Source of the DNA: Synergistaceae bacterium | GTDB lineage: Bacteria; Synergistota; Synergistia; Synergistales; Aminobacteriaceae | DNA: 34,103 bases | Assembly: GCA_017445205.1 (NCBI GenBank) | Contig: JAFSUP010000060.1 | Coordinates: 1-34,103, forward strand | Reading direction: 5' to 3' | Part shown: piece after piece, positions 4,361-33,959 of the stretch | Layout of the letters: every line of letters begins with the position of its first letter | Numbering within the stretch: position 1 is the first letter of the stretch | Notes under the pieces: model-generated | The model's database searches: none | What the model was told of the DNA's origin: nothing | The model's input: only the letters and a program-made list of their open reading frames with translations | Made by a program: the position numbers and the translations under genes

Positions 4361-6021
4361 CAGTCTTTAATGGGGGCAGGGTGCCCAAACAAGAATCCCT
4401 GTGCTAGGTCGCAGCCGACGCTCTTTAGGAATTGCAACTGCTCAATCGTTTCGACGCCTTTTGAAAGTGCGGGAATTCCCAATTTCTTCGCCATGTCTAT
4501 AACGGCAGCGATTATTATGTTTGCGCGTTGATTATCTACCGTTTTTATCATGTCCATGTCGATTTTAAGGCCGTCAAGCGAGAAATCTTTCAGGACTTTC
4601 AGCGACGAGTACCCCGCTCCGAAAGCGTCCATCCAAACTTTGAAGCCATGTTCACGAAGTCGTTCAGCCTCATGCTGCATTGCTTCCATGTCAACAGCGA
4701 TTAAACTTTCAGTCAGTTCAAAACGTAATAAATCGGGCGAAATTTCATTTTTGCTTACGGCGTCTTCAATCACTCGAACGACATCGGTTAATTCAAAATC
4801 GAGCCTCGAAAGATTTAGCGACACAGGCACAATCCTTTCACCGTTCTTAATTTGACGACGCAATTCTTCGCAGACTTTATTTATAACGTAAGTGTCAAGC
4901 CTGTGAATTAAATGCTGCTCTTCAAGAACGTAAATATAACTTGCCGGTGAAAGTCGTCCGTACTTGGGATCTTCCCAGCGTGTCAGAGCTTCAACAGAAG
5001 CAGTTTTGTTAGTCCTGACGTCGATAACGGGCTGAAGGTAAACTTTTATTCGTTCCTCTCTTAGAGCCTCATTGAATGACGCGACTATATATTCTTGAAG
5101 GTGAGCTTTTTCATCGAGTTTGCCATCATAAACGCTCGTGATTATTCCGTATTCGTATTTAATACTGTCGCAGGCGAATTTAGCGCAGTCGCAAATTACG
5201 CTTGTGTCGAGATTTTGATCTTTAATTTCATAAATCCCGGCTTTCATTTCGACAATAACTCCGCGACGAATATTATTAATTCTCATACTCATTCGCTTAA
5301 TTCGTTCTGCTAAGTCTTCTTTAATGGTGATGACGGCAAAATGATCGCTTTCAAAACGAGCGATAAGACCCTGCGGGAATGAATCTTGCAAAATCCTAGC
5401 GATCGATTTCAGCATTCTATCGCCGCCCGCAAAGCCGTAAGTTTCGTTATAGGTATGAAAATTTCTGATGTTGAAGTAAACGCATTGAGGTTTCCCGCCG
5501 CGCTTTAAGAAGTCTTTAATTTTTTCGGGAGCTTGCTGTCTGAAGCCTTTCAAGTTTAGGAGGCCGGTTAGTTCGTCGATGATATTGGCGGCAGGTTCAG
5601 GGAATGTAGTTTGGCCGGAAAGTTCCGTAAGATTGTCGCGAAGGACCATATCGTGAAGATAAACATAAAATAAATCTCCGAGTTCTTCATCATGGACAAG
5701 ATGTCCCCAGTCTTCGATTTTTTTAATTTTACCGTTTTTGGAAATTATTCTGTAAGTTACATAGTCGTAGCCTTGTGTAGCAGCGATTTGTCTTTTGATT
5801 ATATGTTCGACTTCTTCGATGTCTTCCGGATAAACTATTGTGGAAAAACTTCCGCCTGTGAATTTCATGAAGTCTTCAATGGATTCACATTCAAAAATTT
5901 TAGCGATTTCATCACTTGCGAAGATAATTTCTTCAGTCTCGTTATCTTTATAGACAAGCAAGGCCCCGGGCATGTTTGCTGAGATTTTTTCGAGGGTCAT
6001 GCTGTCGTTCGAGTTAAACAT
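4360..6021 (-). CDS. PAS-GGDEF-EAL protein with both catalytic domains degenerate
   Basis: 553 residues from the ATG at 6021. I prefer this start over one 16 codons upstream because AGGAGGG (6040-6034) lies 12 nt before it. A PAS-like sensor domain (about 10-125) is followed by a GGDEF domain (about 148-290) and an EAL domain (about 310-550). The GGDEF signature reads ESDHF (224-228), losing both glycines and the catalytic Glu. The EAL domain keeps EAL (344-346), NLS, ELTES, KID and QGF. The DDFGTGYSS motif, however, reads DAFGAGYSS with Ala at 466, and the Glu of AEGVE is Lys at 521; both normally help bind the catalytic metals. The protein is therefore more likely a c-di-GMP receptor or signalling scaffold than an active cyclase or phosphodiesterase. 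Its stop overlaps the polA start. A promoter with -10 TATAAT (6052-6047) lies just upstream. Confidence 0.9.
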   Translation of the reverse strand: MFNSNDSMTLEKISANMPGALLVYKDNETEEIIFASDEIAKIFECESIEDFMKFTGGSFSTIVYPEDIEEVEHIIKRQIAATQGYDYVTYRIISKNGKIKKIEDWGHLVHDEELGDLFYVYLHDMVLRDNLTELSGQTTFPEPAANIIDELTGLLNLKGFRQQAPEKIKDFLKRGGKPQCVYFNIRNFHTYNETYGFAGGDRMLKSIARILQDSFPQGLIARFESDHFAVITIKEDLAERIKRMSMRINNIRRGVIVEMKAGIYEIKDQNLDTSVICDCAKFACDSIKYEYGIITSVYDGKLDEKAHLQEYIVASFNEALREERIKVYLQPVIDVRTNKTASVEALTRWEDPKYGRLSPASYIYVLEEQHLIHRLDTYVINKVCEELRRQIKNGERIVPVSLNLSRLDFELTDVVRVIEDAVSKNEISPDLLRFELTESLIAVDMEAMQHEAERLREHGFKVWMDAFGAGYSSLKVLKDFSLDGLKIDMDMIKTVDNQRANIIIAAVIDMAKKLGIPALSKGVETIEQLQFLKSVGCDLAQGFLFGHPAPIKD

Positions 6022-13686: not shown

Positions 13687-13723
13687 TCCCTTTCTTGATT
13701 AAATTTAAGAGAGGGATTTTTTT
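13687..13723 (+). terminator. Rho-independent terminator after the response regulator
   Basis: TCCCTTTCTT (13687-13696) pairs with AAGAGAGGGA (13707-13716) over 10 bp with one G-U, followed by seven T. It ends the plus-strand signalling unit and lies directly against the next promoter. Confidence 0.88.
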
Positions 13724-13731
13724 GTTATAAT
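13723..13731 (+). promoter_or_regulatory. Extended -10 promoter of the small-protein unit
   Basis: TGTTATAAT is a perfect extended -10 (TGnTATAAT). It begins inside the T-run of the preceding terminator and predicts a transcript start at about 13738-13740. The -35 region overlaps the terminator stem and is poor, as is usual for extended -10 promoters. Confidence 0.6.
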
Positions 13732-19176: not shown

Positions 19177-19532
19177 TGGTGGAGGCGGGGAGATTTGAAC
19201 TCCCGTCCGACGCGGGCCAATCGTGATGGCACTACAGGCTTAGTTCTGCGAAATTGTCGTCCGAGTCAGGTGCAGAACACCCTTCTTCATTCCAAGATTT
19301 TAAATATCTATCACCCTGCTAAAATCATCACCGGGTGGGGAGCTGCTTTTCGTGACACCTCCGGCGAACCAGCAGCAGTGTCCGTCCTTTGGCGTAGCTG
19401 GCTATACTAAGCCGCTAATGCGAAATTATCTTCGACTTTTATTTTTTTGTCCGATAGTTTTACGGGTTGTTACAGACTTCCCCCGACCTGCTCCTTCAGA
19501 CCCTCCTCGCGCCGTCGAAACCTGTCGCCCCC
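19177..19532 (-). ncRNA. ssrA: Transfer-messenger RNA (tmRNA)
   Basis: About 356 nt, one-piece. On the minus strand the 5' end GGGGGCGACAGGTTTCGACG pairs as a 7-bp acceptor stem (GGGGGCG with CGCCTCC) with the 3' end, which encodes CCA as part of ...CCTCCACCA. The T-arm GGGAGTTCAAATCTCCC is evident. The tag reading frame lies at 19433-19407. After AAAAGTC it reads GAA GAT AAT TTC GCA TTA GCG GCT TAG, giving EDNFALAA with the usual ALAA protease signal. The tag is short and would begin with a GAA resume codon rather than the common GCN or GGN. tmRNA frees stalled ribosomes and tags the unfinished protein. Its partner smpB ends 18 nt upstream of the mature 5' end, so the two may share a transcript. 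Confidence 0.95.
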
Positions 19533-29631: not shown

Positions 29632-29649
29632 AGGGAGCTTTTTATTTTT
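29612..29649 (+). terminator. Bidirectional terminator between rsmA and feoAB
   Basis: CTCCCTC (29617-29623) pairs with GAGGGAG (29631-29637) around a 7-nt loop, flanked by AAAAA on the left and TTTTTATTTTTA on the right. It can end transcripts from both sides. It overlaps the rsmA stop codon (29629-29631) and stands 11 nt from the feoAB stop. Confidence 0.9.
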
Positions 29650-31987
29650 ATATTAAAATCATTCTTGTGAGCCACGCGAAAATCCACGCTACAACACACT
29701 GCCATATTACAACTCCCCACGCCCAACGACTGCCAAGTTCTCTTTTAATCGAAGCAATTGCGGCCACGCACGGCGTATATAAAAGACTGAAAACTAAAAG
29801 CGAAGCCGCTGCAACAGGCGATATAACGGCGCTGACGTTCTCGCCGAACAAAATTTCAAGAGTCGAAACGACGCTTTCTTTTGCCATAAAGCCACTTATT
29901 AACGATGTGCATATGCGCCAATCGCCAAGCCCCAACGGTCTAAACAGAGGCTCTATAAGTCCTGCGACTGCTGCCAAAATACTTTCTTGAGGATTGTCAG
30001 TTAGATTAAAATGAAAATCAAAACTTTGTAAGAACCACACGACGATCGTAGCAATGAAAATCACAGTGAATGCTCGCTGAAGAAAATCTTTTGCCTTCTC
30101 CCATAAGAGCCATAAAACATTTTTCGCGCCGGGCATTCTGTAATTCGGCAGCTCCATTACGAACGGAACAGGCTCACCTCTGAATAAAGTTTCTTTGTAA
30201 AGCAACGCGATTAAAATTCCAACGACAATCCCCAAAATATAAAGTCCTGTCATTATAAAACCGCCATGTTTCGGGAAGAACGCATTTACAAAGAAAGCAT
30301 AAATCGGAAGTTTAGCGGTACAGCTCATGAACGGAGTTAATAAAATCGTCATTCGCCTGTCGCGTTCACTCGGAAGCGTGCGCGTTGACATTACCGCCGG
30401 GACTGTACAGCCGAAGCCGATTAGCATCGGGACTATACTGCGGCCTGAAAGTCCGATTTTTCGCAAGAGCTTATCCATAAAAAAAGCCACTCGTGCAGAA
30501 TAGCCTGTGTCTTCAAGAATTGAAAGAAAGAAAAACAAAGTTATGATTATCGGCAAGAAACTTAAAACGCTCCCGATGCCTGCGAAAATTCCGTCAATGA
30601 TTAAGCCGTGAAGGACGCTGTTGACGTTCATTGAGGTCATGAAAGCGTCGGCCGCTTCGGTGAAAGAGTCAATGCCGTTTTCTAAGAGTTCTTGAAAATA
30701 TGCGCCGATGACATTGAACGTCAAAAAGAAAATTGAAATCATGACCGCCAAAAACACGGGTATAGCTGTATACTTGCCAGTTAAAATTTTGTCGAGCTTT
30801 TGACTTCTTAAATGTTCGCGGCTTTCTTTAGGTTTTACGACGGACTGCGAACAGACTTTGCGGATAAATTCAAATCTCATGTCGGCTATAGCGGCGTTAC
30901 GGTCAAGGCCTCGTTCGTTCTCCATTTGAATTATTATGTGCTCTAGCATTTCTCTTTCGTTTTGTTCAAGTTTTAATTGCTCAAGCACAAGCGGATCATT
31001 CTCAATAATTTTGCTGGCGGCAAATCTTAAAGGCAGGCCTGCGCGTTCGGCATGGTCTTGAATTAAGTGAACAATAGCGTGTAAAGCTCTATGAACAGCT
31101 CCGCCATGGTCGTTCTCGTCGCAAAAGTCATAGCGCGTCGGTTTCTCTTGATATTTAGCAATGTGAATAGCGTGCTGAATGAGTTCATCGACGCCTTCGT
31201 TTTTAAGAGCTGAAATCGGAATGACCGGCACGCCTAAAAGAGCTTCCATTTTATTAATGTCAATCGTGCCGCCGTTGCCGCTTAACTCGTCCATCATGTT
31301 CAGAGCCACGACCATCGGAATCTGCATTTCTAAAAGTTGGACAGTCAAGTATAAATTTCTTTCTATATTCGTAGCGTCGAGTATGTTTATAATGGCTTTT
31401 GGCTTCTCGCTCAAAACGAAATGACGCGAGATTAATTCTTCGCCGCTGTATGGAGACATTGAATAAATCCCGGGCAAATCTGTAACTAAAGTGTCTTCAT
31501 GGCCTTTAATCATTCCGTCTTTGCGACTGACAGTAACGCCGGGAAAATTTCCGATTCTTTGTTTAGCTCCCGTAAGCTGATTAAAGAGAGTTGTTTTGCC
31601 GGAGTTTTGATTTCCGACAAGCGCGAACGTTAAGACAGTGCCGTCCGGTAATGGTTCGCTTTCGCCTTTAATATGATACTTGCCTTCCTCACCGAGGCCG
31701 GGGTGTTCAATTATTGAAGAATGATTTTCAGATTGTGTATTTTGATTTTCTTCTTTTATATTTGCGATTTGTTTAATTTTTATTTGTTGCGCGTCAGCAA
31801 GTCTTAAAGTTAATTCATAATCATGAATTCTAATTTCGAGTGGATCGCCCATAGGAGCGTGGCGAATCATTTTTACTTCAGCGTCCGGGATAATCCCCAT
31901 ATCGAGCAAGTGTTGTCTTAAACTTCCTTCGCCGCCGACGGATTGAATTATTGCGCTTTGATTAATTTTTAATTCATTGAGATTCAT
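29648..31987 (-). CDS. feoB: FeoA-FeoB fusion, ferrous iron transporter
   Basis: 779 residues. The N-terminal 75 residues are a FeoA/SH3-like domain (LRQHLLDMGIIPDAEVKMI, then PLEIRIHDYELTLR), joined by a polar linker (about 76-115) to FeoB. The G domain has G1 GNQNSGKT (125-132), the GNFPGVTVS switch, G3 DLPG (170-173) and G4 NMMD (230-233). The membrane part (about 400-779) carries two Gate-type repeats with VPMLIGFGCTVPA and TPFMSCTAKLPIYAFF. GTP-driven Fe2+ uptake in anaerobes is the established role. FeoA and FeoB are usually separate genes; fused forms are known in some lineages. It is monocistronic here, with a shared 3' terminator and an unusually long, foldable upstream region (31988-32359). 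Confidence 0.95.
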   Translation of the reverse strand: MNLNELKINQSAIIQSVGGEGSLRQHLLDMGIIPDAEVKMIRHAPMGDPLEIRIHDYELTLRLADAQQIKIKQIANIKEENQNTQSENHSSIIEHPGLGEEGKYHIKGESEPLPDGTVLTFALVGNQNSGKTTLFNQLTGAKQRIGNFPGVTVSRKDGMIKGHEDTLVTDLPGIYSMSPYSGEELISRHFVLSEKPKAIINILDATNIERNLYLTVQLLEMQIPMVVALNMMDELSGNGGTIDINKMEALLGVPVIPISALKNEGVDELIQHAIHIAKYQEKPTRYDFCDENDHGGAVHRALHAIVHLIQDHAERAGLPLRFAASKIIENDPLVLEQLKLEQNEREMLEHIIIQMENERGLDRNAAIADMRFEFIRKVCSQSVVKPKESREHLRSQKLDKILTGKYTAIPVFLAVMISIFFLTFNVIGAYFQELLENGIDSFTEAADAFMTSMNVNSVLHGLIIDGIFAGIGSVLSFLPIIITLFFFLSILEDTGYSARVAFFMDKLLRKIGLSGRSIVPMLIGFGCTVPAVMSTRTLPSERDRRMTILLTPFMSCTAKLPIYAFFVNAFFPKHGGFIMTGLYILGIVVGILIALLYKETLFRGEPVPFVMELPNYRMPGAKNVLWLLWEKAKDFLQRAFTVIFIATIVVWFLQSFDFHFNLTDNPQESILAAVAGLIEPLFRPLGLGDWRICTSLISGFMAKESVVSTLEILFGENVSAVISPVAAASLLVFSLLYTPCVAAIASIKRELGSRWAWGVVIWQCVVAWIFAWLTRMILI

Positions 31988-32359
31988 TTTATTTTTCTGC
32001 TTCTGTGAAGCCTCACACGAATAAATTCGCGTGCTTCCGAACTTCTTAATCGTCCGAACTGCCTGTCTGTCATTCGGTCTAATCTCAGAAACCTAAAGTC
32101 GAAACCATAAGCTCCGCAAAAAAACTATAACACAGATACAGGTGCGGGTGCTTCTCCCGGAACACAAAGGAACTTTTGCCCTCGTGTCCGACTCTACTGT
32201 CACCAGTAGAGATTTCTTGTAAAACTCTTGGTAAAACGCGTGGTCTAGTGTTGGCTTTCGCTAATCTATGGCTTCTCCGTCTAATATTTACCGAAAAATA
32301 TTATAACATAGAACCGTCTAACTCACGACTGAAGTCGCGAGAATGCGACGGCTTTTCAT
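31988..32359 (-). other. Gene-free foldable stretch upstream of feoAB
   Basis: 372 bp without a convincing gene. Read toward feoAB, an extended -10 TGTTATAAT (32308-32300) predicts a start near 32293 and a leader of about 305 nt. The leader can form CTCTACTG-GTGA-CAGTAGAG, an 8-bp stem with a GNRA-type loop (32218-32199). Downstream it can form a bulged CGGA..TCCG stem and a GAAGC..GCTTC hairpin close to the ATG. Before the promoter lies another hairpin, CTCGCGACT/AGTCGTGAG (32341-32322), enclosed by CCGTC/GACGG. That last hairpin resembles ends of IS200/IS605-type elements, and a plus-strand frame around 32140-32240 vaguely recalls a TnpB C-terminus. The stretch could be a regulatory RNA leader or the remnant of such an element. 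Confidence 0.45.
32300..32308 (-). promoter_or_regulatory. Extended -10 promoter reading toward feoAB
   Basis: TGTTATAAT on the minus strand is identical to the extended -10 at 13723-13731. No clear -35 is visible. It would give feoAB its own transcript with a long leader. No Fur-box-like palindrome was obvious around it. Confidence 0.5.
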
Positions 32360-32563
32360 TCAAAAATTCTTCAATAGATACATTGCCTTGTCGTAAGTAA
32401 AGTACCGCGGTTCATATTTTGTTTCTTCAATATATAATTGCGTAGCTTCTTTCAAATTATATAAAGCTTGTTCTATTGTTTCGCCTTGACTTACAGAGCC
32501 TATCTCGGGACATTCTGCAACATATAAATTTTCTTCTTTATAAATTATTGCCGTGTAAGTCAT
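32360..32563 (-). CDS. HicB-like (type II antitoxin family) protein, no HicA partner seen
   Basis: 67 residues. MTYTAIIYKEENLYVAECPEIGSVSQGETIEQALYNLKEA is the standard HicB partial RNase H-like fold, with the CPEIG turn and the EQALYNLKEA helix. There is no room for a DNA-binding helix at the C-terminus, so it is the short HicB form. Normally a hicA toxin gene precedes or follows; none is visible, as the upstream gene is fliQ and the downstream stretch is gene-free. The ATG overlaps the fliQ stop (ATGA), so it is translated together with fliQ. It may be a solitary antitoxin, a remnant, or a small regulator. Confidence 0.85.
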   Translation of the reverse strand: MTYTAIIYKEENLYVAECPEIGSVSQGETIEQALYNLKEATQLYIEETKYEPRYFTYDKAMYLLKNF

Positions 32564-32835: not shown

Positions 32836-32924
32836 TTTAATTCCCTTTCTTAAAAATTATTTTCATTATATAACGCGGAGCTGTGATAAAATCGGCATAT
32901 TTTTACGAGAGGAGATCAAGTCGA

Positions 32925-33959
32925 ATGGCGAAGAACACGGCGCTTCACAAGGCTATGAAGGCCAAGCAAGATGAATTTTACACGGACTTAAACGACATTT
33001 CCAACGAACTTTTTCATTATAGAGATTATTTTCGCGGCAAAACTATTTTGTGTAACTGCGACGACCCTTTTGAAAGCAACTTTTTTCAATACTTCGCGCT
33101 CTGGTTCAACGTCTACGGACTCAAAAAATTAATCGCGACTTCCTATGTTCAAAGTCCGGTTGCTCAATTAGAACTGCCGCTATTTGAAGAGGCAAAGCCC
33201 GAGAAAGAACGGACTCCTTATTGCGCAATAATGACCGAGTTCAAAGATTTCAACGGCGACGGAGCTGAAGATCTCGCTGACGTCGAATGGGCTTTGAAAA
33301 ATAACGGCATCGTTCACAAATTAAAAGGCGACGGCGATTTTAGAAGCCCGGAGTGTATCGAGTTTTTGAAAGAAGCCGACATCGTCGTTACAAATCCGCC
33401 GTTCTCGCTCTTTCGTGAATACGTCGCGCAACTAATCGAATACGATAAGAAATTTATAATCATTGGCAACAAAAACGCCGTTACTTACAAAGAAATTTTT
33501 CCGTTAATCATGCAAAATAAAATGTGGTTCGGAGTGGGCTTCAATGGCGGGAACGCTTATTTCAAAGTTCCTACTGATGATCCTTCGCGATACGCTAACG
33601 GCGTTTATAATCCAGAAGAAGAGCGTGTGAAATTTCGCAACGTAACATGGTACACAAATCTTCAACACCATCGACGAAACGAAAAAATGACTTTGTGGCG
33701 CAGATATTATGATGATCCGTCGATGTATCCAAAATATGATAATTATGACGCGATCGAAGTCAGCAAAACTTCCGACATTCCCTGCGATTATTACGAAGCA
33801 ATGGGAGTGCCGATTACGTTTCTTGATAAATATAATCCGGAGCAGTTTCACATACTTGGACTCGACAGATATATACCAGACAATCCGAAGCCGGGACGAA
33901 GGTTTACGATTAATGGCAAAGAAATTTACGCGAGAATTTTAATCAGGAGGAAGAAGTGA
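32925..33959 (+). CDS. EcoRI-type adenine-specific DNA methyltransferase, no restriction partner seen
   Basis: 344 residues from the ATG at 32925, chosen over one 14 codons upstream because GAGAGGAGAT lies just before it. The start AKNTALHKAMKAKQDEFYT and ILCNCDDPFESNF are typical of the EcoRI-like modification methylase family. Motif IV is VVTNPPFSLF (154-163), the N6-adenine catalytic NPPF. The GVGFNGGNAYFKVP, VTWYTNLQHHRR and GVPITFLDKYNPEQFHILG stretches follow. It methylates adenine in a specific DNA sequence that cannot be deduced here. No endonuclease gene is adjacent: fliQ diverges upstream and lpxI overlaps downstream. It is therefore likely an orphan, regulatory or self-protecting methylase, though a distant partner is possible. 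Confidence 0.88.
   Translation: MAKNTALHKAMKAKQDEFYTDLNDISNELFHYRDYFRGKTILCNCDDPFESNFFQYFALWFNVYGLKKLIATSYVQSPVAQLELPLFEEAKPEKERTPYCAIMTEFKDFNGDGAEDLADVEWALKNNGIVHKLKGDGDFRSPECIEFLKEADIVVTNPPFSLFREYVAQLIEYDKKFIIIGNKNAVTYKEIFPLIMQNKMWFGVGFNGGNAYFKVPTDDPSRYANGVYNPEEERVKFRNVTWYTNLQHHRRNEKMTLWRRYYDDPSMYPKYDNYDAIEVSKTSDIPCDYYEAMGVPITFLDKYNPEQFHILGLDRYIPDNPKPGRRFTINGKEIYARILIRRKK

Follow-up and report, generated by a model that had tools for sequence, protein, structure and literature searches.

The foldable unit upstream of feoAB in the analysed window (34,103 bp of a rumen Synergistaceae MAG of 1.92 Mb in 133 contigs, 80% complete) is a whole non-autonomous element of the IS200/IS605 type. It spans 354 bp on the minus strand (32005-32358), has inserted exactly 3' of a TTGAA pentanucleotide, is homologous in its core to the 3' ends of tnpB genes and carries a covarying RNA structure. 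It holds no protein gene; its parts are a left-end hairpin, a promoter, a genus-specific 5' domain, a complete guide-RNA scaffold and a right-end hairpin. We consider it likely that this is a PATE-like element that is moved by TnpA and retained by a TnpB acting in trans, with the 5' flank of feoA as its guide. The original prediction had set a structured RNA leader against transposon debris. This was a false choice, as what the transposon contains is a structured RNA that covaries, the TnpB guide RNA; the IS200/IS605 assignment stood, but the debris did not.

Anatomy of the element and its position before feoAB

The limits at 32005 and 32358 are common to copies in the same genome and in related genomes. 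Read on the minus strand, the element begins directly after TTGAA (32359-32363), with its left end at 32358, and terminates at its right end, 32005, with ...GAGGCTTCAC. The TTGAA target would double as the TAM of TnpB. The left-end hairpin CTCGCGACTTCAGTCGTGAG (32322-32341, minus strand), which had been likened to IS200/IS605 ends, is shared with elements that carry TnpA and TnpB in congeners. It is followed by an extended -10 promoter TGTTATAAT (32300-32308, minus strand, with TATAAT at 32300-32305), from which transcription is expected to start near 32293. The position of this extended -10 is conserved in all standalone subfamilies and also before tnpB in genome G053. The promoter had been called identical to a site at 13723; the two share the 9-mer GTTATAATA (at 13724), but differ beyond it.

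Downstream of the promoter lies a 5' RNA domain particular to standalone copies (32230-32292, minus strand), consisting of a stem GGUAAA/UUUACC and then AUAGA-hairpin-CACUA. Its conservation includes compensatory changes, and it is present in 8 of the 188 Synergistota genomes, all of a single genus. A search of tnpB loci did not recover it; short matches of the R1 model in these loci are due to the shared GUGA stem.

The remainder of the element (32005-32215, minus strand) is a TnpB guide-RNA (omegaRNA/reRNA) scaffold overlying a vestigial tnpB C-terminus. Its first helix is an 8-bp stem CTCTACTG/CAGTAGAG with a GTGA (GNRA) tetraloop (32192-32211, minus strand), which confirms the predicted strong hairpins, and its 3' end is the right-end hairpin GGAAGCACGCGAATTTATTCGTGTGAGGCTTCAC (32005-32038, minus strand). 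Directly 3' of the right end follows the host flank AGAAGCAGAAAAATAAAATG (31985-32004, minus strand), a candidate guide that overlaps the feoA start codon. Read on the minus strand, 31980-32375 folds more strongly than its shuffles (z = -3.4, 0/100), with a far weaker excess on the plus strand (z = -1.5). The tnpB tail is still visible in standalone copies, most clearly in G063. The frame recalling a TnpB tail was correctly noticed, but it has the orientation of feoA (minus strand) and is not on the plus strand. We found no conserved open reading frame in the element. Open frames differ among the subfamilies, and a conserved small protein was rejected on this ground.

Downstream of the element, feoA and feoB form a single fused ORF of 779 aa (29648-31987, minus strand; 584 bits to TIGR00437 and a FeoA match). 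The right end lies 17 bp upstream of feoA on the same strand, and the distance from TATAAT to the feoA ATG at 31987 confirms the proposed leader of about 305 nt. A terminator-like site was looked for at the element end on the feoA strand and not found, and the element transcript therefore likely runs on into feoAB. The feoAB leader is probably the guide RNA of the element as a side effect of position, and feoAB probably owes this promoter to the same accident of position. Elsewhere in the window, a 358-aa ORF (32883-33959, plus strand) looks on visual inspection like an adenine methyltransferase of the EcoRI type (NPPF motif); it had no NCBIfam match.

Dispersed copies and the insertion site

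The segment matched twelve other places in its own genome at E < 1e-8. Many of these lie at contig ends, as expected because repeats break the assembly. A covariance model of the 5' half of the element recovered seven copies. We therefore give the copy number as at least seven, counting left-end copies at different sites in the 80%-complete assembly. The left flanks differ among these copies, and copies with an intact left end, in the same and in related genomes, have TTGAA or TTGAT just before it. Two other copies are incomplete: one lacks the left-end hairpin and begins right after TATTGA (L019, 5640-5843), the other lies in a gene, has no left end and starts partway through the 5' domain (L085, 3234-3480).

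An empty site is present in G063, where the order is fliQ-hicB-hicA-feoA without the element and hicA ends in ...VEEFLKESGK*. The window bases on either side of the element rejoin in frame as ...VSIEEFLKEAEK*, the hicA tail, which implies that the insertion was exact, without target duplication, in the last hicA codons. Most of the remaining hicA is deleted in the window, a deletion of about 200 bp relative to the intact order in G063, and it fuses hicB to the tail of hicA, the gene that received the element (fusion at 32359-32563, minus strand). The hicB-hicA toxin-antitoxin pair is broken at this site. A further insertion appears only as a scar. Contig 2 of the same genome carries a hairpin of about 50 bp made of left and right end (C2, about 5386-5438; L020, 3387-3451), and a full element occupies the orthologous site in G060 (contig C316; L087, 1450-1805), with flanks that are 96-97% identical. 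The scar is an orthologous insertion that collapsed, probably via recombination between its two similar end hairpins. End hairpins on both sides that are common to an autonomous element, insertion at a fixed target, and multiple copies without a transposase gene together mark the element as PATE-like.

These results bear on the proposal that the leader of feoAB is an iron- or metal-sensing riboswitch. The promoter, the strong fold and the place before feoAB in the correct orientation fit it, but the dispersed copies are unrelated to iron genes, which refutes the proposal, and the exact transposon insertion and the empty site speak against it as well. Moreover, the upstream regions of feoA in three relatives contain no such RNA. 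In G060, whose feoA is the nearest to that of the window (91% identity), no element precedes the gene and the upstream region is a different one; G063 has the empty site, and in G040 fliQ is directly upstream of feoA. Hence, feoAB has no conserved leader RNA. Rfam returned nothing relevant at gathering or permissive thresholds (czcD/NiCo, Sensei, HEARO and others), and we regard a riboswitch as practically dismissed. Group I introns/IStrons, HEARO and known riboswitches were likewise considered and had no Rfam support. The sole Rfam match in the window was a tmRNA gene (19177-19532, minus strand).

A domesticated guide, through which the window copy and a TnpB-like protein would control feoAB, is also very improbable. 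The comparison would be with TldRs, which are nuclease-dead TnpB repressors. The overlap of the guide with the feoA start codon and a promoter pointing at feoAB fit such a role, but the insertion sites are scattered, the insertion before feoA occurs in none of the relatives compared, and the cognate TnpBs retain the RuvC triad, with none in the genome's own assembly. A search for a second genomic target of the window guide (TTGAA plus flank, at most three mismatches) gave only one poor match, in which the motif was absent.

Guide-RNA scaffold and cognate TnpB

We scanned 84,980 genomes with a degenerate pattern of the scaffold core (GGCAAAAGTTYC...GAGAANCAYCYGCACC). In total, 21 loci were found, in Synergistaceae, Clostridia, Solobacterium, Ohessyouella and others. 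Where a locus does not belong to the standalone family, this core coincides with the 3' end of an open tnpB frame and its right end, in other phyla too. The right-end hairpin also stands just behind annotated IS200/IS605 tnpB genes on the plasmids pRUMAL01 of R. albus and pCY360 of B. proteoclasticus. These plasmid elements share the right-end hairpin and the TnpB group; they are autonomous with tnpB, and the Butyrivibrio locus additionally has tnpA, whereas the element described here carries neither. Viral contigs contained one TnpB-linked relative, and a phage collection gave no match.

In the alignment of the cognate proteins, the RuvC residues D213, E301 and D380 are invariant. An alignment profile matched the TnpB structure 9nzp at 3e-9, and also Cas12f, while the sequence of the cognate TnpB alone gave no match in the PDB. 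The Cas12f1-like_TNB domain was found in seven of the eight members of the group; the Synergistaceae member alone had no Pfam match, and guided_TnpB scored under its cut-off. Judged by sequence, the cognate proteins are TnpB proteins of a divergent group. A rumen and gut TnpB group (L157, L158, L160, L162, L163, L167, L174, L177; alignment A4) has an intact RuvC triad and a zinc ribbon in which the usual first CxxC pair is missing, and it is poorly covered by Pfam and NCBIfam.

The structure alignment comprised 21 sequences, 10 standalone and 11 tnpB-linked, and 60 base pairs. Over all 21 sequences, 93.9% of the pairs were kept and 31 pairs had changed on both sides, figures that relatedness can inflate and that refer to a structure derived from the same sequences. 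Shuffle controls kept 81.6% on average, with 20.6 two-sided pairs, and slid controls reached at most 44.7% and 13 two-sided pairs. In the ten TnpB-less copies alone, 98.2% of the pairs were kept and 20 of the 60 had changed on both sides; 500 shuffles of this set reached no more than 94% and 13 such pairs. The window copy forms 98.3% of the structure pairs, and the GTGA-capped helix has two-sided changes in five of its seven counted pairs. Both the large effect and the slid controls speak for a real structure. Since this structure covaries also among the TnpB-less copies, the element is not decayed debris. Homology to the intact tnpB 3' end and right end, combined with covarying secondary structure, places the scaffold among the omegaRNAs/reRNAs. 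Part of the conservation need not reflect guide function, because the right-end structure is needed for transposition too.

Two autonomous layouts in the same genus have left ends similar to that of the element. In G060 (contig C47) the order is left end-tnpA-tnpB, and in G053 it is left end-promoter-tnpB-guide RNA-right end, where the promoter is an extended -10 like that of the window copy. The standalone element thus resembles such an element in which the ORF has been swapped for a short 5' RNA domain. Cognate TnpB occurs in 7 of the 43 genomes of the genus and the standalone element in 9, with both in 6 (Fisher p = 9e-5, ignoring shared ancestry). The three genomes with the element but without cognate TnpB are 80-83% complete. 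Among them, the assembly of the window's own genome (80% complete) yielded neither a cognate TnpB nor a Y1 TnpA, which counts against mobility and retention in trans; TnpA of matching elements is present in congeners. The two TnpBs of the same genome were rejected as the source of the element, as they belong to another group and their 3' ends are unlike it. Their genes are intact (C77, L047 2062-3201; C39, L048 1804-2958) and have nearly identical structured 3' ends, without a Y1 TnpA, and the loci are possibly IS607-like.

A rival account is a passive MITE/PATE that TnpA moves in trans while TnpB is uninvolved and the guide part is kept by its overlap with the right end or by youth. IS200/IS605 ends by themselves suffice for TnpA, a PATE-like tnpB tail with right end is known from Halanaerobium (PMC7290912), and the missing cognate TnpB in the genome's own assembly agrees with this account. 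It does not readily explain why two-sided changes extend across the scaffold of about 210 nt, far from the terminal hairpin, and into the 5' domain, why the promoter is retained, and why the standalone element is associated with cognate TnpB. We consider it unlikely.

Proposed mode of action and relation to known systems

The preferred reading, mobility by TnpA and retention by TnpB in trans, takes its mechanism by analogy from TnpB and TnpA biology (PMC8612924; PMC10278001; PMC11870625). The Y1 transposase of an autonomous relative would move the element as single-stranded DNA. Transcription from the element promoter would yield a guide RNA of about 290 nt, extended by a guide taken from the host flank, which at this site is the start region of feoA. 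A cognate TnpB supplied in trans would use this RNA to cut chromosomes that the element has left, at TTGAA plus flank, and repair after the cut would restore the element. More tentatively, and with rather less confidence, the family may be reduced to a guide-RNA gene between two transposon ends, a parasite of its autonomous relatives that exploits their transposase as well as their RNA-guided nuclease. It would be retained as a guide-only drive, and its 5' domain would be a new acquisition.

The anatomy itself is not new. A PATE-like IS605 derivative in Halanaerobium hydrogeniformans likewise consists of a left-end hairpin, a 58-nt tnpB tail and a complete right end, without a tnpA or tnpB gene (PMC7290912). 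That derivative occurs in one copy and was not discussed as a guide RNA (PMC7290912), whereas the element here is multi-copy and combines a promoter of its own with a conserved 5' domain and a covarying guide-RNA scaffold. In IS200/IS605 elements such as ISDra2, the omegaRNA/reRNA of TnpB overlaps the tnpB 3' end, extends to the right end and takes its guide from the flank (PMC8612924, PMC10278001). The RNA described here is similarly structured and ends at the right end, with a target motif 5' of the left end; unlike in ISDra2, it is encoded without tnpB, has its own promoter and an added 5' domain, and its cognate TnpB is from a divergent group. TnpB is proposed to cut sites that lack the element, which would keep or spread it (PMC11870625, citing Meers et al. 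2023). There, retention is described for elements with their own tnpB, whereas here it would act in trans on tnpB-less copies. No description of a proliferating family of guide-RNA-only TnpB elements with promoter and 5' domain was found in a literature search outside which the key TnpB papers lay.

TnpB guide RNAs are normally cut out of the tnpB mRNA, and guide and nuclease therefore stay linked. The 5' domain might let the RNA work without such excision, for example through stability or recruitment of TnpB. For IscB nucleases, which are related, there are reports of standalone guide RNAs that act in trans. The findings correct the attractive reading of the feoAB leader as an iron riboswitch. 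If retention in trans is true, RNA-guided transposon retention can work with guide and nuclease on separate elements, giving one nuclease many natural guides, and this would be a conceptual step toward CRISPR systems, in which guide and effector have genes of their own.
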